Assembly: GCF_003286915.1 (NCBI RefSeq)
Contig: NZ_QMFY01000015.1
Coordinates: forward strand, 62,001 to 126,000
From: Pseudochryseolinea flava
GTDB lineage: Bacteria; Bacteroidota; Bacteroidia; Cytophagales; Cyclobacteriaceae
Reading direction: 5' to 3'
DNA: 64,000 nt
Shown here piece by piece: positions 14,086 through 26,691 of this stretch (the first letter of the stretch is position 1; each line of letters opens with the position of its first letter). The notes beneath the pieces are model-generated. The model did no database searches, had not been told where the DNA came from, and saw only the letters and a program-made list of their open reading frames with translations. Both the position numbers and the translations under genes were made by a program.

Positions 14086-17000
14086 TTATTTACAGAACCA
14101 CAATCTCATTAAAGACAAGAGTTGATCAATCTTTAAAGGTTTTGTGATATAATCGGAAGCGCCTGCTTCAATACATTTTTGCCTGTCGCCCTTCATCGCT
14201 TTCGCGGTTACGGCAATGATAGGCAGAGAGCTGTTTTTGTGTTCTCTTCGGATTTTTTGCGTGGTTTCATATCCGTCCATCTCCGGCATCATGATATCCA
14301 TGAGCACCATGTCTATCCTTGGATTGTCGTTCAAAATCTGGATTGCTTCTTTACCACTTTCTGCTGTAATCGCGTTGATGTTAAAACGTTCGAAGACGGT
14401 CGTGAGTGCGAAGAGATTTCTGACGTCATCATCGACGACCAGAATCGTTTTTCCGCTAAGGATATCTTCTTTGCTTCTAACGTTTTCAATAATTCGTTTT
14501 TTCTCCGGCGCTAAATTCTTATGGTTGATGTGCAGCAATGAAACGGTTTCTTCAAGCAGTTGATCGAGAGAATTCACGCCTTTGGTGAGTACTGCATTGC
14601 TATTATGGTTTACATAATTTAGTTCGTTTTTGTTGAAGTCTTTTGCGGAGTATACAATCAATGGCGTGAGACGTTGCTTGGCTTTACTCGTCTTACTTAT
14701 TAAATCAGTACCAGAAATGTCTGGCAAAGTATAATCGAGAATGATACAGTCGAAATCTTTTGATTCGATCTGGTGGAGTCCTTCTTCCCCGGTCTTCGCA
14801 ATCGTTATTCCAATGTTGTCGTCAGTCAGAATTTTAGCGATTTGAGAGGCGTCAAGTTCGTTGTCTTCTACGACGAGTACGTTACGCATTTCTTTTTTGC
14901 TATACTCGATAATATCCTTAAATACTTCATTCAAAGATTCATTGTCGAGTGGTTTTAATAAGAAGTTTCGTGCGCCTCGTTTAAGGGCCAATGACTTATT
15001 CTCTTCTCCAGAGATCACATAGATTGGGATATGGCGATAGGTGAGATCGTTTCGTAATAGGTCAATCACTTTCCAACCACTCGTGTCTGGTAGTTTTACA
15101 TCGAGTGTGATGGCGATTGGGTTGAATCGATTTATAAAATCAAACACCTCAAGATAGTTGGTTGCGACGACAGCTTTCATGTCCATGCTGTGCGCTTTCT
15201 CGACAACAATTTTTCCAAAGCGAAGATCGTCTTCAACGACTAACACTACCTTATCGTTGGATTGGATATTGTTTCGGTCATCGCCGGAGTCATTGATCAT
15301 CTCATTCACGATTTCCAGATTACGATTTTCGATGCCTTCGTTCGTGATACGAAGTGTATTCAGCAACGAGTCGATTTCTTCGGATTCTTTGTCGAGCTGT
15401 AATTTCTGAATCGCTTTGATGCTTTCGGATGCTTCGCGTGTAGGGGTTACGTTAGTGTGGCTATCCAATGGTAGGTAAAGGGTAAAAGTACTACCTCTGC
15501 CAGACACACTTTCAAGTTCAATTGTTCCACCGAGTAGCTCCGCTAATCCGCGACTAATCGACAGGCCAAGACCCGTACCGCCATATTTGCGACTGGTTGA
15601 TCCTTCGGCTTGTTGGAAAGCTTCGAAAATAATTTGCTGTTTCTCAAGCGGGATACCGATGCCGGTGTCGCTGATCGAGAAAGCAATCACTTTTGAGGCA
15701 TTGTCTAAGTTCAAGTTGCCCGCCTTCCAGCGGCGTTCGGCTTGATAGATACTTAGTGATACTTCTCCTTTTTCAGTGAACTTGAATGCGTTAGACAGCA
15801 AGTTCTTCAGGATTTGGTTGAGACGCTGGATGTCGGTTTCAACATTCACCGGTAAAGCGGAATCGGTTTCAATCTTGAAGCGTAAGTTTCGTGCCTCTGA
15901 AATCGGTTTGAACGTTGTTTCGACAAAGCTGGTGATCTCAGAAAGTGAAACAGGAGAGATGTTCGCTGAGATGAAACCAGATTCGATTTTTGAAAGATCC
16001 AGAATGTCATTAATCAATTGGATCAAGTCGTCGCCGCATGAGTGAATTGTTTTTGCGTAGCGGATTTGCTTTTCGGTTAAGTTACCTTCGAGGTTTTCGT
16101 AGAGCTGTTGCGCTAAGATTAGCAAACTGTTGAGTGGTGTTCGCAACTCATGAGACATGTTCGCCAAAAATTCCGACTTGTATTTTGATGTAAGTGTTAA
16201 TTGTTCGGCCTTTTCCTCCAGTGACAAACGCGCTTCTTCTACTTCTTTATTTTTTGCTTCTACTTCGTTTTTCTGTTTAACGAGTAGAAGGGCTTTGTCT
16301 TGCAGTTCATCATTTGTTCTTCGGAGTTCTTCTTGTTGACTCTTTAATTCACTCGCAAGCGATTGTGATTGAGCTAGGAGTTCTTCTGTTCTTGAGTTAG
16401 CCTCAATCGTATTCAATACGATACCGATACTTTCTGTTACCTGCTCAAGGAAGTCAAGGTGAGTTTCGTTAAACGGTTCAAGCGAAGCGAGTTCCATTAC
16501 GGCTTTCACGTTACTCTCGAATAGTACAGGCAGAATAATCAAGTTGGCAGGAGTCGCTCTACCAAGTCCAGAATTTATCTTAATATAACCATGGGGAATG
16601 TTCGTTAGTAAGATGCGTTCTTTTTCAAGTGCACATTGTCCGACGAGGCCTTCGCCGATGGCAAATTCTTTTGGTGTGTTTTTATCTTCTTTATAAGCGT
16701 ATGCGGCAAACAAGTTCAATTTCACCTGAGGGGTTTCTTCATCTTGTTTGAGAATATAGAACGCTCCGTAGTGTGCATTTACAACTTGTGCGAGTTCCGA
16801 AAGGATGCGTTTTGTTACCGTGTTTAGGTCGCGTTGGCCTTGAAGCATTTGTGTGAACTTCGCGAGGTTAGATTTTAACCAATCTTGATCTTGGTTTCGA
16901 AGTGTTGTGGCGCGAAGGTTTGCGATCATTTGGTTGATAGTATCTTTCAATGCCTCTACTTCGCCTTTTGCTTCGACGCGAATCGTTCTTGTTAAGTCTC

Positions 17001-20000
17001 CCTTTGTTACCGCAGATGCCACTTCTGATATCGAACGAACTTGTGTTGTTAGATTCTGTGCGAGCTGGTTTACGTTTTCGGTTAGATTTTTCCAGATGCC
17101 CGATGCACCCGGTACGTTTGCTTGACCTCCCAATCTTCCTTCGACACCTACCTCGCGGGCTACTGTTGTTACTTGATCTGCAAATACAGCAAGCGTCTCG
17201 ATCATTTCGTTGATTGTTTCAGTCAGCTGTGCCACCTCGCCTTTTGCATTGATGGAAAGTTTTTGACGGAGATTTCCTGTAGCTACAGATGTTACCACCT
17301 TTGCAATACCACGCACCTGTGATGTTAAGTTGGAAGCCATCATGTTTACCGAGTCGGTGAGGTCTTTCCAAGTACCAGCAACGCCCTTCACTTCAGCTTG
17401 GCCACCAAGTTTACCCTCTGTACCTACTTCTCTCGCTACCCGCGTAACTTCAAAGGCGAATGAGTTCAATTGCTCCACCATGGTGTTGATGGTGTTTTTT
17501 AACTCAAGGATTTCACCCTTTACGTCGATGGCAACAGTCTTCGATAAATCACCAGAAGCAACTGCTTTCGTAACCTGGGCAATGTTTCGTACTTGCGCAG
17601 TGAGATTTCCTGTCATCTGGTTTACGGAGTCAGTAAGATCTTTCCATGTTCCAGCGACACCGGGTACAAACGCCTGTCCACCGAGTTTACCATCCGTTCC
17701 TACTTCGCGTGCCACACGCGTTACTTCAGAAGCAAATGCGCGCAACTGATCCACCATCGTGTTCAGGGTTTCTTTCAACTGGAGAATTTCTCCACGAACA
17801 TCTACAGTGATTTTTTTCGAAAGGTCACCATTGGCCACCGCGATAGCCACGTCAGCGATATTTCGAACTTGCGCTGTAAGGTTCCCTGCCATCTGGTTAA
17901 CTGAATCGGTGAGATCTTTCCACGTACCTGCTACACCTGGCACGTTAGCTTGGCCACCGAGTTTACCTTCAGTACCAACTTCACGAGCAACACGTGTAAC
18001 TTCTGACGCGAAGCCACGCAATTGATCCACCATCGTATTGATCGTATTTTTTAGTTCGAGGATTTCACCTTGAACATCTACTGTAATTTTTCGCGACAAA
18101 TCTCCGTTTGCAACAGCTGTTGTTACTTCGGCAATGTTGCGCACCTGTGACGTGAGGTTCGAAGCCATTTTGTTGACCGAATCTGTCAGATCCTTCCAAG
18201 TACCACCAACGCCTGGTACATCAGCCTGGCCTCCAAGTTTTCCTTCTGAACCTACTTCGCGGGCAACGCGTGTTACTTCAGATCCAAAAGAGTTGAGCTG
18301 ATCAACCATTGTGTTGATCGTATTTTTCAACTCAAGAATTTCGCCCTTAACGTCTACCGTTATTTTCCTTGACAGGTCACCCTTCGCTACTGCGGTAGTT
18401 ACTTCCGCGATGTTACGAACCTGGCCCGTGAGATTAGAAGCCATTTGGTTTACCGAGTCGGTAAGATCCTTCCAAACACCACCGACACCAATAACCGTTG
18501 CTTGTCCACCGAGTTTCCCTTCTGAGCCTACTTCTCTTGCAACCCTTGTTACTTCCGATCCAAAAGAGTTGAGCTGATCCACCATGGTGTTGATGGTGTT
18601 CTTCAACTCTAAAATTTCGCCCTTCACATCTACAGTGATTTTCCGCGATAAGTCACCATTCGCTACGGCCGTTGTTACCTCAGCGATATTACGCACTTGC
18701 GACGTTAAGTTACCGGCCATCTTGTTCACCGAGTCGGTCAAGTCTTTCCAAGTACCGCCAACGCCGGGTACATCGGCTTGTCCACCCAATTTTCCTTCTG
18801 AACCCACTTCGCGTGCCACACGCGTTACCTCTGAAGCAAATGAATTTAATTGATCCACCATTGTATTGATGGTGTCTTTTAATTCAAGGATTTCTCCTTT
18901 TACGTCCACAGTGATTTTTCTACTGAGGTCGCCGCGTGCCACTGCTGTAGTCACTTGCGCGATATTTCGAACTTGTCCTGTGAGGTTAGAGGCCATCTGG
19001 TTTACGGAGTCAGTAAGATCCTTCCACACACCACCGACACCTTTCACGGTAGCTTGGCCACCAAGTTTCCCTTCGGAACCTACTTCGCGAGCAACGCGTG
19101 TTACTTCCGATGCAAATGAGTTTAGTTGATCCACCATCGTGTTGATGGTATCTTTTAACTCAAGAATTTCACCTCTCACATCTACTGTGATTTTTCTGCT
19201 GAGGTCACCCCGTGCTACCGCTGTTGTTACCTGTGCAATATTTCGAACTTGGCCGGTGAGGTTCGAAGCCATTTGATTTACGGAGTCTGTAAGGTCTTTC
19301 CACACACCTCCAACACCCTTTACTGTAGCTTGTCCTCCAAGTTTACCTTCTGAACCAACTTCTCTTGCTACACGAGTCACTTCCGCTGAGAAGGAGTTCA
19401 ACTGATCTACCATCGTGTTGATGGTATTTTTTAATTCTAGGATTTCGCCTTTAACGTCGACGGTAATTTTTTTCGATAGGTCACCTTTCGTCACGGCCGT
19501 CGTAACGTCCGCGATATTTCTAACCTGACCAGTGAGGTTTGATGCCATCTGATTCACGGAGTCGGTAAGATCTTTCCACGTTCCCGCCACACCTTTCACT
19601 TGTGCTTGGCCTCCGAGCTTTCCTTCGGTACCAACTTCAAGCGCTACACGCGTTACCTCAGAGGAGAAAGAGTTAAGCTGATCCACCATCGTGTTGATGG
19701 TATTCTTCAACTCAAGGATTTCTCCTTTTACATCCACCGTGATTTTTTTGGAAAGGTCCCCTTTCGCTACGGCGGTTGTTACTTCGGCAATATTTCGTAC
19801 CTGTGCCGTAAGATTGCTTCCCATCTGATTCACAGAGTCCGTCAAATCTTTCCACACACCGGCAACGCCTTTTACTTTTGCTTGACCTCCGAGTTTACCT
19901 TCAGACCCTACTTCGCGCGCCACACGGGTTACTTCCATGGAGAACAGGTTAAGCTGTTTTACCATGTCATTTACTTCTTTTGCAATTTGTGCGAACTCAC

Positions 20001-20532
20001 CCTGCAACGTATGACCACCAATTTCAAGCGGCATTTGTTGGGATAGATTTCCTTTTGCTACAGAACTGATAACGTGTGCAATCTCTATGGTAGGGTGTAC
20101 AAGGTCGGAGATTAGCACGTTCAATGAATCAACGCCTGTGCTCCACGCGCCCTTTGCTTTTGGTACTTCTATACGCTGATTTAACTTCCCTTGCTTACCA
20201 ATGATATGTCCTGCGCGTGTAAACTCCAACATCATTTTTTCATTGAGCGAAATGACTTCATTCAATGTGTCGCACACCTTTCCACTTAAGCCAACTTGGT
20301 CGAACGGCATCCGCGCTGAGAAATTTCCGTTACGGACTTCCGTCAGCACGCGTAGCAGTTCTCGGTTATCGATGAAGTCTTGATTTTGTACGGAGAACGA
20401 AGGAACAATTTCTTTGTTTTTCTTCGCGACTTTTTTTGCAGACCGACTCGGTGGTGTCAGCGTTGCTATTGTCTGCTTAGCGGTATCGTGGTTTTTCTTT
20501 CCATTCGTACCTGATGAAGCCTTCTTATTCAT
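14086..20532 (-). CDS. Giant soluble poly-HAMP hybrid histidine kinase (HAMP array-GAF-HisKA-HATPase-REC x3)
   Basis: A 2148-residue sensor kinase with no TM helix. After a basic, low-complexity tail (1-45), HAMP-like units fill residues about 55-1212. Ten consecutive 92-residue repeats (252-1171) each hold two HAMP units: one with [23 protein letters not shown], one with [25 protein letters not shown]. Counting the flanking diverged units gives about 25 HAMPs. A GAF domain (about 1220-1375), a coiled coil (1380-1450), HisKA with His1461 ([10 protein letters not shown]), HATPase ([22 protein letters not shown]), and three receivers follow; the last has Asp2079 ([13 protein letters not shown]). 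No HPt domain is present. Related architecture occurs in cytosolic fungal group III kinases and their bacterial counterparts, which respond to osmotic or cytosolic stress. Signal unknown. Confidence 0.93.
17020..19779 (-). repeat. Ten tandem 276-bp coding repeats (double-HAMP units)
   Basis: Residues 252-1171 of the kinase consist of ten units of exactly 92 residues (276 bp) each. The protein sequences are almost identical while the DNA differs widely at third codon positions, so they are old duplications held by selection, not recent copies. The first units and the last (from residue 1172) are more diverged. The repeats also create long antisense open frames on the plus strand. Confidence 0.92.
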
Positions 20533-22897: not shown

Positions 22898-22928
22898 TTT
22901 GAATTGATGAATAATATCTATAATATTG
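22898..22928 (+). promoter_or_regulatory. Candidate promoter of the sulfite reductase operon
   Basis: TTTG at 22898-22901, then 19 bases, then TAATATTG at 22921-22928. This fits the Bacteroidota housekeeping promoter (TTTG, 19-21 bases, TAnnTTTG) with one mismatch. A start near 22935 would give an untranslated leader of about 220 bases. Confidence 0.6.
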
Positions 22929-22934
22929 ATCGAT

Positions 22935-23120
22935 ATTTAGGACAATGAGAAACAATAAGACCTGTTCGAGCAAGAAGTTTGCAGCCAAGATGTGGTGCTG
23001 TAAACAGGTACGCCGTGCAGGAATTATGGATTCGTGATGATCTCTGATAGACTAACACAGAAATTAATAGCATAACGAGCCTTTCCTGCACCGAAACACG
23101 GGGAAGGCTCTTTTATTTTA
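22935..23120 (+). promoter_or_regulatory. Putative transcription-attenuating leader (riboswitch-like)
   Basis: Three pairings are seen. ACCTGTT (22960-22966) pairs with AACAGGT (23003-23009) and encloses a CAGC/GCTG stem (22982-22985, 22997-23000), forming an upstream domain. GTGCAGGAA (23015-23023) is perfectly complementary to TTCCTGCAC (23083-23091). The latter overlaps the 5' arm of the terminator (23077-23086), so the two pairings exclude each other as in antiterminator/terminator switches. I do not recognise a known riboswitch class. The ligand, if any, is unknown; a sulfur metabolite or tetrapyrrole would fit the genes. Confidence 0.5.
23077..23114 (+). terminator. Intrinsic terminator inside the sulfite reductase leader
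   Basis: GAGCCTTTCC (23077-23086) pairs with GGGAAGGCTC (23101-23110), with one T-G wobble, and is followed by TTTTATTTT (23111-23119). It lies only 36 bases before the sulfite reductase ATG and no gene ends just before it, so it points to attenuation rather than to the end of an upstream gene. Confidence 0.75.
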
Positions 23121-23154
23121 TAAACATATACCCGAACTAACAGCCCTTAGCCAT

Positions 23155-25272
23155 ATGCAAAGCTTTCGTTCTGAACTTGAAGATTTAAATAACCCGGTTG
23201 TCGCGCGCGATATTATCGATCTGGAAAAGAAGATCAGGTTATTTCGTGAGGGAAAAATTGATGACGATAAATTTCGCAGCCTTCGCTTAGCGAGAGGAAT
23301 TTACGGCCAGCGTCAGTCGGGTGTGCAAATGATCCGCATAAAGCTTCCCTTAGGACGCGTATCTACGAAACAACTTCGTACCATCGCCAATATTTCAGAT
23401 GAGTACGCGAGCAAGAATCTGCACGCCACTACGCGTCAAGATATTCAAATTCACTTTGTGAGTTTAGATCGTACACCAGAGCTGTGGGCGCGACTCGAAA
23501 AAGATGACATCACAACGCGTGAAGCTTGTGGTAATACTGTTAGAAATATCACAGCGTCTGACTTAGCTGGTATTGACCCGAAAGAACCATTTGATGTGTC
23601 GCCGCATGCTTATGAGATGTTCCGTTATTTCTTGCGCAATCCGATTTGCCAAGAGATGGGTAGAAAATTTAAGATCTCTTTTTCATCTAGTGAAGACGAC
23701 TCTGCTTTCAGTTTTATCCACGACCTTGGTTTTATTCCCAAGATCGTTGACGGTAAGCAAGGCTTCAAGGTAATGATTGGCGGCGGGCTTGGTGCAAATC
23801 CATACCTCGCGCTCGTTGCCTATGAGTTTTTGGAAAGCGATCAAATCATTCCATTTGCAGAGGCTGTGCTTCGCGTATTTGATCGTTATGGAGAACGCAA
23901 TCGCAGGATGAAAGCACGATTCAAATTCTTGCTTGATGATCTCGGATTGGAAAAAACGATGGCACTTGTCGAGGAAGAAAGACTAGCGATAAAACACAAA
24001 TCTTACGCGATCGATTTGAATGTTCTTCCGCAGTCTACCAGCCCAGTGTTTAGAGGTGTAGATCCTTTTATAGCAGACCAAACCAAATTCGAGCGCTGGA
24101 GAAAGACCAATGTGTTTGAACAAAAGCAAAAGGGATTTTACGGTGTCTATGTTAAACTTCCGTTAGGAAACATGTCATCAGACCTGGCGCGTACATTTGC
24201 AGACATTGTTGATCAACATGCGTCAGAAGAGCTTCGCATTACAGTGAATCAAGGTTATTTGATACGTTACGTACGTCCCGAAGCGTTGAAATCATTGTAT
24301 GTCGCGTTAGATCAATATGCGCTTGCAGAACCTGGTTTTGATAGTGTTGCTGATGTTACTGCATGTCCTGGAACTGAGTCGTGCGCGTTAGCAATTTCTG
24401 ACAGCACGCATATTTCGCTTGCGCTTGAGAAGGTAATACGCGAAGAATTCCCTGACATGATTTTTAATACTGATATTAAGATTAAGATCAGCGGATGCCC
24501 TAATTCATGCGGCCAACATGGTTTAGCTGCGATAGGGTTACATGGCAGTACAATCAAGGATAAATCTGGTAAACTCCTACCAGCATTGGTTGTCTTGTTA
24601 GGGGGCGGAAATCTGAAAGACGGAAATGCGATAATCGCGGATAAAGTTGGTGTGAAGATTCCGAGTAAGCGTGGTCCAGATGCGTTGCGTTTAATCTTAA
24701 ATGATTACGAAGCAAATGCAATTGATGGCGAATATTTTCACGATTACTACAAACGACTTGGGCAAAAGTATTTTTATGCGATGCTTAAGCCATTGGGAGA
24801 TTTGACGACGGTGACGCCAACAGATTATATCGATTGGGGTGAAGATCATAATTTTATTCTTCATACGTCGGTAGGAGAATGTGCTGGTGTGATCATCGAT
24901 TTAGTTGCTACGTTGCTTTACGAATCAGAAGAGAAGATCGGATGGGCAAATGAAGCGATTCAGCAGAAGCAGTATGCTGATTCAATTTATCACAGCTACA
25001 ATACGTTCATCAACACGGCAAAGGCAATGTTGTTAACCCGCGAAACAAAACCAAGCACACAAATCCAAGTGTTGAATGACTTTCAAAAAGAGTTTGGTGC
25101 GAGTGGTATTTTTGGCGCTGCAGATTTTAAAGAATTTGTACTGCGGATTAACAAGCAGGAGCCATCAGAAGAATTTGCGATAGCATTTTTAGAAGATGCG
25201 AAACGCTTTTTAGCAGAAGTTTCTGCCTATAGAAAACAAGAGACAACAGAGAAAGAAGCAGTAGCGAAATGA
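23155..25272 (+). CDS. Siroheme-dependent sulfite/nitrite reductase with C-terminal HEPN-like domain
   Basis: A 705-residue ferredoxin-type reductase that makes sulfide from sulfite or ammonia from nitrite. Two ferredoxin-like half domains (about 60-120 and 340-390) and two core domains are present. The four Cys that hold the 4Fe-4S cluster and siroheme are Cys404 and Cys410 (CPGTESC) and Cys448 and Cys452 (CPNSC). A helical extension (about 575-690, YADSIYHSYNTFINTAKAML) resembles a HEPN domain, a feature of Bacteroidota members. The next two genes make siroheme, its cofactor, in the same operon (4-bp overlap with the next gene). Sulfite is the likelier substrate given no nitrate genes nearby, but this is not proven. 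Confidence 0.9.
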   Translation: MQSFRSELEDLNNPVVARDIIDLEKKIRLFREGKIDDDKFRSLRLARGIYGQRQSGVQMIRIKLPLGRVSTKQLRTIANISDEYASKNLHATTRQDIQIHFVSLDRTPELWARLEKDDITTREACGNTVRNITASDLAGIDPKEPFDVSPHAYEMFRYFLRNPICQEMGRKFKISFSSSEDDSAFSFIHDLGFIPKIVDGKQGFKVMIGGGLGANPYLALVAYEFLESDQIIPFAEAVLRVFDRYGERNRRMKARFKFLLDDLGLEKTMALVEEERLAIKHKSYAIDLNVLPQSTSPVFRGVDPFIADQTKFERWRKTNVFEQKQKGFYGVYVKLPLGNMSSDLARTFADIVDQHASEELRITVNQGYLIRYVRPEALKSLYVALDQYALAEPGFDSVADVTACPGTESCALAISDSTHISLALEKVIREEFPDMIFNTDIKIKISGCPNSCGQHGLAAIGLHGSTIKDKSGKLLPALVVLLGGGNLKDGNAIIADKVGVKIPSKRGPDALRLILNDYEANAIDGEYFHDYYKRLGQKYFYAMLKPLGDLTTVTPTDYIDWGEDHNFILHTSVGECAGVIIDLVATLLYESEEKIGWANEAIQQKQYADSIYHSYNTFINTAKAMLLTRETKPSTQIQVLNDFQKEFGASGIFGAADFKEFVLRINKQEPSEEFAIAFLEDAKRFLAEVSAYRKQETTEKEAVAK

Positions 25273-26048
25273 TTCCTACGGTATTTACTTTTCATAAAGA
25301 ACCTCGTCTGACCTTAGTAGGTGCAGGGCCTGGTGATCCTGAGCTGATCACCGTGAAGGCAATAAATGCGCTGAAGGAGGCAGATGTGGTTCTGTATGAT
25401 GCCTTGGTGTCGCCTGAAATACTACGGCTGATTCCGAATGGCATTCCTGCATTTTCCGTGGGGAAACGTGCTGGGGAACATTCGCATACGCAAGATGAAA
25501 TCAATCAGCTCATTGTTGAGTTTGCTTTTCTTTATGGCCATGTGATTCGATTAAAAGGTGGAGATCCTTTTGTGTTTGGACGCGGATCAGAGGAGATCGA
25601 GTTCGCAGAATCGCATGGTATTGCCACGCGTGTGATTCCTGGAATCACGAGCGCACTTGCTGTACCTGCAAGTTTGAAAATACCGGTGACTGCGCGGGGT
25701 GCCAGCGAAAGCTTTTGGGTAGTGACGGGTACTACTAAGGCAGGAAAGATTTCTGGTGATATTGAATTAGCGGCACAGTCTACCGCTACCGTTGTGATAT
25801 TGATGGGATTACATAAAGTGGATGAGATCATGGCAAGCTTTTGCAGACATGGCAAGCATGACATGCCTGTCGCTGTGATTCAAAATGGAACCTTACAGAC
25901 CCAGCGTAGCGTTATTGCTACAGTAGAAACTGTAACGGAACAAGTGAAGGTCAATAAAATTGAAGCGCCGGCTGTCATCGTCATTGGTGAAGTCGTTCGA
26001 TATGCAGAAACGCTTCGCCACATCATGACCAAGGTCAAATCGGCCTAA
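25269..26048 (+). CDS. cobA: Uroporphyrinogen-III C-methyltransferase
   Basis: A 259-residue SAM-dependent methyltransferase that adds two methyl groups to uroporphyrinogen III to give precorrin-2, the first step of siroheme synthesis. Family motifs are complete: VGAGPGDPELIT near the N terminus, DVVLYDALVSPEIL, GKRAGEHSHTQDEIN, RLKGGDPFVFGRG, and VIPGITSALAVPA. The start codon overlaps the sulfite reductase stop (ATGA at 25269-25272), so the two are translationally coupled. Length is that of a monofunctional SUMT; the dehydrogenase/chelatase part is a separate downstream gene instead of a CysG fusion. Confidence 0.95.
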   Translation: MIPTVFTFHKEPRLTLVGAGPGDPELITVKAINALKEADVVLYDALVSPEILRLIPNGIPAFSVGKRAGEHSHTQDEINQLIVEFAFLYGHVIRLKGGDPFVFGRGSEEIEFAESHGIATRVIPGITSALAVPASLKIPVTARGASESFWVVTGTTKAGKISGDIELAAQSTATVVILMGLHKVDEIMASFCRHGKHDMPVAVIQNGTLQTQRSVIATVETVTEQVKVNKIEAPAVIVIGEVVRYAETLRHIMTKVKSA

Positions 26049-26103: not shown

Positions 26104-26691
26104 ATGGAACGCAACAATCTTTTTCCGGTTTTCTTAAAGTTAGAGTCGCTTGAGACTTTAATTGTTGGTGGTGGACATGTTGGTTTGGAAAAACTGACAG
26201 CGCTTTTGAAGAACAGTCCATCAGCGAAAATTACATTGGTAGCACGCGCTATTGGTGAGCCGATAAAGGAACTTGCACGAAAACATACCCAAGTCAAATT
26301 GTTCGAGCGAAATTTTAAGTTGTGGGATCTTTGGGATAAAGATCTTGTGTTGCTTGCGACTGACAATCGTCAACTTCACGAGACGATTCGGAATTTTGCG
26401 CGTACGCGTCGTTTACTTATCAATGTAGCCGACACACCCGATCTCTGCGATTTCTATTTAGGTTCTGTGGTTACTAAGGGTAATTTAAAGATTGGTGTTT
26501 CGACCAATGGAAAATCACCGACGATATCGAAAAGAATTCGAGAGTATCTAGAGGATGCGCTTCCTGATAATACCAACGAGTTGTTGGATAACATGCAAAA
26601 AATTCGCGACCAAATTAAAGGCGACTTCAGCAAGAAGGTGCAAGTGCTCAACGATGTTACGGCAAGTTTCCTAGAGCGCGGCGGCGCTTAG
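26104..26691 (+). CDS. Precorrin-2 dehydrogenase/sirohydrochlorin ferrochelatase (CysG N-terminal type)
   Basis: A 195-residue Met8p-type enzyme that oxidises precorrin-2 with NAD+ and inserts Fe2+ to give siroheme. The N-terminal Rossmann fold has LFPVFLKLE then VGGGHVGLEKL (NAD-binding glycine motif). Later motifs are LVLLATDNRQLH, INVADTPDLCDFYLGSVV and KIGVSTNGKSPTISKRIREYLE, all characteristic. It follows cobA after 55 bp in the same direction. Together with the two upstream genes it forms a compact module giving both the apoenzyme and its cofactor. Confidence 0.93.
   Translation: MERNNLFPVFLKLESLETLIVGGGHVGLEKLTALLKNSPSAKITLVARAIGEPIKELARKHTQVKLFERNFKLWDLWDKDLVLLATDNRQLHETIRNFARTRRLLINVADTPDLCDFYLGSVVTKGNLKIGVSTNGKSPTISKRIREYLEDALPDNTNELLDNMQKIRDQIKGDFSKKVQVLNDVTASFLERGGA

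Follow-up and report, generated by a model that had tools for sequence, protein, structure and literature searches.

Which signal is read by the leader that precedes the sulfite reductase-siroheme operon of Pseudochryseolinea flava? The leader lies in a 64,000-nt stretch of contig NZ_QMFY01000015.1 (hereafter the window), whose numbering is used throughout. The first-pass annotation saw in it a transcription-attenuating riboswitch, possibly a new ligand-sensing RNA for sulfur or tetrapyrrole supply. Comparison with orthologous leaders and folding models lead us to a different sensor. The leader is very probably a ribosome-mediated transcription attenuator, in which translation of a short cysteine-containing leader peptide would sense Cys-tRNA.

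Results

The locus and its operon

Three genes follow the leader:

23155 to 25272, + strand: sulfite/nitrite reductase, 705 aa, first gene of the operon (Pfam NIR_SIR, NIR_SIR_ferr)
25269 to 26048, + strand: tetrapyrrole methylase, presumably uroporphyrinogen-III methyltransferase-like (Pfam TP_methylase)
26104 to 26691, + strand: siroheme synthesis protein, presumably precorrin-2 dehydrogenase-like (Pfam NAD_binding_7, Sirohm_synth_M)

From these domains, the operon products look like enzymes of sulfite reduction and siroheme synthesis, in agreement with the link to sulfur made earlier. Sulfite reduction is a step toward cysteine. The closest sulfite reductases by identity belong to a metagenome genome labelled Chitinophaga (82%), to Chryseosolibacter (74%) and to Chryseolinea (73%). 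Elsewhere in the P. flava genome, a search for copies of the leader gave just eight matches of 15-26 bases. No Cys leader was found at its cysD-like and cysH-like genes or at cysE-cysK (ORF listings for L096-L097; detector on L189, L099 and L275). The window also encodes, at 14086-20532 on the - strand, a hybrid histidine kinase of 2148 aa, in which similar repeats give 11-12 HAMP matches beside GAF, HisKA, HATPase and three receiver domains.

Elements of the leader

The following elements were located ahead of the sulfite reductase gene:

22898 to 22928, + strand: candidate Bacteroidota-type promoter, TTTG-N19-TAATATTG, from the sequence and the Bacteroidota consensus, with a predicted start site
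22945 to 23037, + strand: predicted leader-peptide ORF of 30 codons, MRNNKTCSSKKFAAKMWCCKQVRRAGIMDS and a stop; a Cys-rich ORF is kept in 7 of 7 aligned relatives
22960 to 23009, + strand: upstream helix ACCTGTT/AACAGGT (arms 22960-22966 and 23003-23009), present in the window, not conserved
22963 to 22965, + strand: Cys7 codon, TGT
22996 to 23001, + strand: tandem Cys18-Cys19 codons (TGC TGT) after Trp17, the stalling site proposed from the sequence and from the runs of relatives
23015 to 23023, + strand: antiterminator 5' arm GTGCAGGAA, inside the ORF, 13 nt downstream of Cys19 and 11 nt upstream of the stop codon
23077 to 23120, + strand: predicted intrinsic terminator (arms 23077-23088 and 23099-23110, T-rich tail 23111-23120)
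23083 to 23091, + strand: antiterminator 3' arm TTCCTGCAC, overlapping the 5' arm of the terminator

TTTG at 22898-22901 and TAATATTG at 22921-22928, separated by N19, form what we take to be a Bacteroidota-type promoter. This element had been proposed before; it is present in the sequence and recurs in relatives. TTTG-N19-TACTTTAG/TACTTTCG stands at the equivalent place in L009, L091, L092 and L093, and in relatives such as these the pattern TTTG-N19-TAnnTTnG is found ahead of the leader ORF. A looser -7 pattern occurs in 63 of 74 real leaders, but chance gives it in half of the shuffled ones. No call was made by a simple promoter scan, which does not cover this promoter type. In the leaders of the genus, the ORF starts 8-16 nt past the -7 element, and the ORF would therefore be nearly leaderless. 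To our knowledge, reliance on a Shine-Dalgarno sequence is not expected in Bacteroidota.

The short ORF with its Cys codons spans the leader and ends at the stop codon 23035-23037; the first-pass annotation overlooked it. Its peptide holds three Cys in all, one pair and one distant residue, and is thus weaker than many other leaders. Where the window has Cys18-Cys19, relatives show CCC, CWC or WCC runs. An ORF with such a run is kept in seven relatives (six of the same genus and L010), for example as KKCCCKHLL, KMCWCKRFL or ACWCCKHG, and in the same seven the arm CAGGA and a terminator lie downstream of it. Four close members have leaders of the same length, and the reading frame is kept among them. 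Four of their comparisons show more than three changes, and in these codon position 3 is the one that changes most often; L009 and L092 differ by 6, 4 and 10 changes at positions 1, 2 and 3. Counted by codon, the same pair shows 11 non-synonymous against 5 synonymous changes, and this excess among close relatives counts against the leader-peptide reading.

The two antiterminator arms, GTGCAGGAA and TTCCTGCAC, are complementary at 9 of 9 positions by Watson-Crick pairing, and the terminator arms, which are followed by TTTTATTTTA, do overlap the antiterminator 3' arm, both as described in the first-pass annotation. From the end of the T-rich tail to the sulfite reductase start codon there are 34 nt. 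A simple terminator scan with a loop limit of 8 found no terminator here; the loop of this hairpin is 10. The fold of the leader is better than that of shuffles (z -2.86), none of 200 being as good. In an alignment of 11 sequences (the window and 10 relatives), antiterminator pairs are kept in 92% of cells and terminator pairs in 99%, mostly through invariance. One antiterminator pair is changed on both sides, a result reached by 41 of 500 shuffles, and no terminator pair is. Covariation is thus weak, and it neither proves nor refutes the structure. The upstream helix, said to close a separate domain, is present in the window, but its pairs are kept in 48% of cells as compared to 49% in shuffles and 27-42% in slid versions. 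Because it is not conserved, this helix probably lies outside the mechanism, although it is compatible with the antiterminator in the stalled-leader fold.

Cys codons in orthologous leaders

We examined the 400 nt upstream of the gene in 86 regions, namely 80 loci, five loci of the genus and the window. A dense Cys cluster (at least 3 Cys in 5 codons) in an ORF was found in 28 of the 86 regions, while shuffles gave one in 0.8% and reverse complements in 2 of 86; a looser cut (2 Cys in 5) gave 56 of 86, with 17% and 17 of 86 in the same two controls. When all 20 amino acids were treated alike, Cys deviated most (28 vs. 0.9 expected, and 56 vs. 13.9 with the looser cut). The next excesses were far smaller: Val (10 vs. 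2.9) and Ala (7 vs. 2.6) with the stricter cut, and Met (46 vs. 23.8) with the looser one. The Cys hypothesis came from reading the 80 loci within this set, and these figures are thus drawn from the data that suggested it.

A further 67 upstream regions, taken from family genomes and partly overlapping the first set, provided a partly independent check. Of the family genomes, 107 carry the gene: three had already been included (that of the window and two from the genus), 67 supplied a region each and the other 37 were left out. A Cys ORF followed by a terminator was found in 31 of the 67 regions, 23 of these being dense. The 153 regions of the two sets were then reduced by eight duplicates (identical last 200 nt) to a pool of 145; L089 and L090 were omitted because they duplicate the window and L009. 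With a detector that accepts only ATG starts and terminators of fixed form, 74 of the 145 leaders carry a Cys ORF with a terminator, whereas shuffles gave a mean of 0.6 (ten rounds, at most 1) and reverse complements 1. The dense cut gave 46 of 145, with none in shuffles or reverse complements. The sensor is therefore most likely a translated Cys leader peptide rather than a ligand-binding RNA. Across families, the Cys codons and terminator persist while the surrounding nucleotides change, as codon-based sensing predicts. Sequence and comparison thus establish the parts of the element, their spacing, their conservation and their specificity for Cys.

In a class-wide sample, the gene occurs in 48 of 198 genomes; of the 47 besides that of the window, 29 were examined and 18 left out. 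A slightly looser detector matched within 1500 nt upstream in 13 of the 29, one of them (L309) at 1.4 kb. Some of these 29 loci repeat the first set, the peptides of L314 and L315 being those of L078 and L065.

Some of the peptides are extreme. L133 has 11 Cys (MFESISMICNQPARQCCCCCCCMCHTWVTRGNRCC), and L130 (MHAKNIHMIYKLFNRCCYVCCCCCMCCKNYCYVRMGNS) and L146 have 10. Met is the residue that most often follows the Cys run directly (19 of 74 peptides, against 6% overall); perhaps a second sulfur amino acid is sensed. A separate candidate operator, CTA(C/T)(T/C)-N5-8-TATA(G/C), picked after reading sequences related by descent, occurs in 53 of the 145 regions, against 1.9 in shuffles (e.g. L026, L036 and L094). 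It is seen both in regions with the Cys leader (29 of 74) and in regions without it (24 of 71), and the window lacks it.

Leaders without the element

Using the same ATG-only, fixed-form detector, no Cys ORF with a terminator was detected in 71 of the 145 leaders. These include close relatives, L011/L107 (74% sulfite reductase identity) and L012/L110 (70%). In 21 of the 71, no more than 120 nt separate the gene from the end of a long open frame, which probably places the gene inside an operon. Twelve genomes (L290-L301) were chosen for having CysD close upstream of the sulfite reductase gene. Their gene is preceded by frames of the size of PAPS reductase, CysD and a CysN-like GTPase (confirmed by Pfam in L293, and for PAPS reductase also in L299), and nothing resembling a Cys leader was found in any of the twelve. 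Ten of them, all except L290 and L299, carry an upstream frame of 138 aa starting MLSKKTKYA(F/L)HA, which is Rrf2 in L293, the one tested. The Cys leader has apparently been exchanged for an Rrf2-like regulator in this group.

Search for a riboswitch

No Rfam family matched the window at gathering scores, and a known riboswitch class was rejected on this ground. The first-pass annotation, which recognized no known class, agrees with this. A relaxed search near the leader gave five matches far below the cut-off, to snoRNA-, miRNA- and lncRNA-like families, which we took as chance. Rfam was likewise empty for 20 further loci, taken from L104-L130. It was also run on 20 of another 40 leaders, among which L159 and L170 matched the SAM riboswitch.

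In favor of a new riboswitch that binds some sulfur or tetrapyrrole metabolite, with the short ORF incidental, are the terminator, the antiterminator and the leader fold that beats its shuffles. A SAM riboswitch does precede the same gene in two relatives (L159 and L170). We built a covariance model from 10 genus-level leaders (172 positions and 17 pairs, mostly of the terminator) and searched 50 chosen sources. At E up to 1, there were 19 matches, spread over 18 sources, and those at leaders were the window, L104 (E 7e-8) and, weakly, 16 others (E 0.004 to 0.7). The 16 weak matches suggest that something is shared among the leaders, perhaps a structure, though common Cys codons and terminators may be enough to produce them. 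Against a riboswitch, blastn of the window leader reaches just 10 of the other leaders in the pool of 145, while clustered Cys codons with a terminator occur in 74, and the helix that would enclose an aptamer, the upstream one, shows no conservation. A ligand-sensing RNA is thus unlikely, and we consider a new riboswitch very improbable.

Folding models

For each of the 74 leaders, a ribosome was set either on the final Cys codon of the run or on the stop, and only the RNA past it, as far as the terminator loop, was folded. Upstream RNA captured the terminator 5' arm with a mean probability of 0.69 for the Cys position and 0.14 for the stop position, and of 0.49 when the stretch between the two was shuffled. 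The window gave 0.89, 0.20 and 0.48, respectively. In 34 of the 74 leaders, at most 2 of 40 shuffles matched the real capture; in some others, such as L028, L031, L062 and L165, the model showed no advantage over shuffles. The overall p of 2e-12 is inflated because the leaders share descent.

With the window ribosome stalled and the terminator 3' arm still to be made, the antiterminator is the predicted fold of the RNA (-21.5 kcal/mol). A ribosome at the stop leaves almost no fold at this point (-0.4), and the terminator is predicted once the RNA is complete (-19.8). In the complete stalled RNA, the minimum is the terminator fold (-27.3). Antitermination must therefore be kinetic and rest on the order of synthesis. 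Both this and the antiterminator that also forms before 3' arm synthesis when no ribosome is present, the untranslated state, count against the model. The conserved pairs and these models support the logic of terminator against antiterminator that had been proposed before.

Discussion

Proposed mechanism

RNA polymerase would initiate a short way ahead of the 30-codon ORF, with a ribosome following to translate it. A shortage of charged tRNA-Cys would stall this ribosome at Cys18/Cys19, leaving GTGCAGGAA free just downstream. This arm could then pair with TTCCTGCAC before the 3' arm of the terminator exists, and transcription would continue into the sulfite reductase-siroheme operon. Given ample cysteine, the ribosome would instead run to the stop at 23035-23037 and cover the end of GTGCAGGAA; the terminator would then form, and transcripts would end near 23120. 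Four elements of this scheme are predictions: where transcription starts, that the ORF is translated, that the ribosome stalls and that readthrough changes.

The trp and his attenuators of enterobacteria likewise have regulatory codons for the end product, the same antiterminator/terminator geometry and a stop codon that masks the antiterminator arm; the amino acid, operon and phylum differ. As in such leader-peptide attenuators, a predicted short ORF with clustered codons for the pathway end product is found here, with an intrinsic terminator between it and the first gene. In the folding model, antiterminator and terminator exclude each other, the antiterminator arm being freed by the stall and hidden at the stop.

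Other roles for the Cys ORF

The peptide itself might be the sensor, a Cys-rich chain that arrests the ribosome upon a ligand (metal, sulfide, heme or oxidant) and not upon shortage of tRNA-Cys. The many Cys and Met residues in some peptides (L133, L130) and the Met after the Cys run in 19 of 74 would suit this idea. However, the window peptide has just three Cys, and codon-starvation attenuators are typically recognized by a run of end-product codons. Known arrest peptides are unlike the leaders here, whose peptides vary widely between groups outside the Cys run. We find arrest by the nascent peptide hardly credible.

Polycysteine leaderless short ORFs ahead of mycobacterial cys operons have reportedly been described by Canestrari in 2020, and they resemble the present ORF in having a Cys run near the transcript start, before cysteine-related genes. 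If attenuation here were likewise translational, the hairpin would act in some other way. In the passages cited, Seliverstov and others describe Cys-run leader ORFs before mycobacterial cys operons that lack obvious terminators (PMC1262725), and such leaders are reported to control downstream translation in the cited part of PMC9031893. Here, in contrast, a conserved intrinsic terminator competes with an antiterminator, and control is predicted at transcription. Of the 145 leaders, 74 have a Cys ORF with a hairpin and T-rich tail behind it, and the tail of the window leader stops 34 nt short of the sulfite reductase start codon; translational attenuation is scarcely to be expected.

Relation to known Cys leaders

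Transcription attenuation by a Cys leader peptide has a close counterpart in the uORFC-8-2 motif, which, in the cited portion of PMC8632094, is found before cysS in Rhodobacterales and combines tandem Cys codons with an intrinsic terminator. Both have a tandem Cys short ORF and a U run after the terminator stem, and a stall on uncharged tRNA-Cys is likewise proposed for that motif (PMC8632094). That motif, however, belongs to Alphaproteobacteria and cysS, its Cys are usually codons 14-15 and its two-stem RNA is conserved, whereas the window element precedes the sulfite reductase-siroheme operon of a member of Bacteroidota, has Cys at codons 18-19 and leaves its nucleotides free to vary between families. 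Tandem Cys codons and a terminator are thus shared, but the location before cysS in Rhodobacterales is not, and the window element is not a member of uORFC-8-2 as defined by gene and order.

No report of a Cys leader in Bacteroidota was found in the open-licence literature. For Flavobacterium psychrophilum, the cited text gives strong clues of leader-peptide attenuation before amino-acid operons and does not mention cysteine there (PMC9723704); a Cys leader may be listed in its supplements. Short ORFs reminiscent of leader peptides are mentioned for Bacteroides in the cited part of PMC7366714, and no term beginning with Bacteroid occurs in the accessible portion of PMC2965389. Cys-codon attenuation with a terminator is thus familiar in kind, and the phylum and operon are ones for which we found no report.

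Variants and significance

Tandem Cys ORFs, each with a terminator called by the detector, precede sulfite reductase in L065/L315, L078/L314, L304, L308, L324 and L328. Other cys genes were searched in family genomes with one detector over 30 loci per gene. For cysD, none of 30 loci had a Cys leader, and the single match for cysS (1 of 30) was on the opposite strand. The one match for cysK (1 of 30) was genome G036 (L233/L276), where the cysE of a cysE-cysK pair follows two Cys leaders that have terminators and are arranged in tandem. The three matches for cysE (3 of 30) were this same place, one on the opposite strand and one downstream of its gene. Several of the cysK loci and all of the cysE loci in this search lie below family cut-offs, so that some are other enzymes. 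In L025, positions 74-178 hold a Cys leader MKNFQHISTKDSSKGVNFIDSYVTCMCCCCCCTY and a terminator-like hairpin 1.5 kb upstream of sulfite reductase; because of this distance, it probably serves another gene.

The SAM-I riboswitch RF00162 likewise controls sulfur genes and is absent from the window. In L159 and L170, it is present (77.6 and 69.4 bits) and is followed by two poly-Cys ORFs, with a terminator after the second only; those of L159 read MNLQ...MSCCCCCCK and MPFKF...MSCCCCACVCCICCICT. From this arrangement, two-input control is possible, and a single transcript would then be gated by SAM and charged tRNA-Cys together.

We suggest, tentatively and at somewhat less than even chance, that poly-Cys leaders are a major and repeatedly reinvented control of sulfur assimilation in Bacteroidota. 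Such modules would be doubled in tandem, transferred to cysE-cysK, swapped with Rrf2-linked control and lined up behind a SAM riboswitch. Natural examples of multi-input attenuation would be provided by the tandem forms and by those combined with the riboswitch. The reading of the leader as a Cys attenuator corrects the riboswitch reading and would extend Cys-codon attenuation with intrinsic terminators to a phylum and operon for which no report was found. It also offers a testable account of how many Bacteroidota could match sulfate assimilation to cysteine supply.
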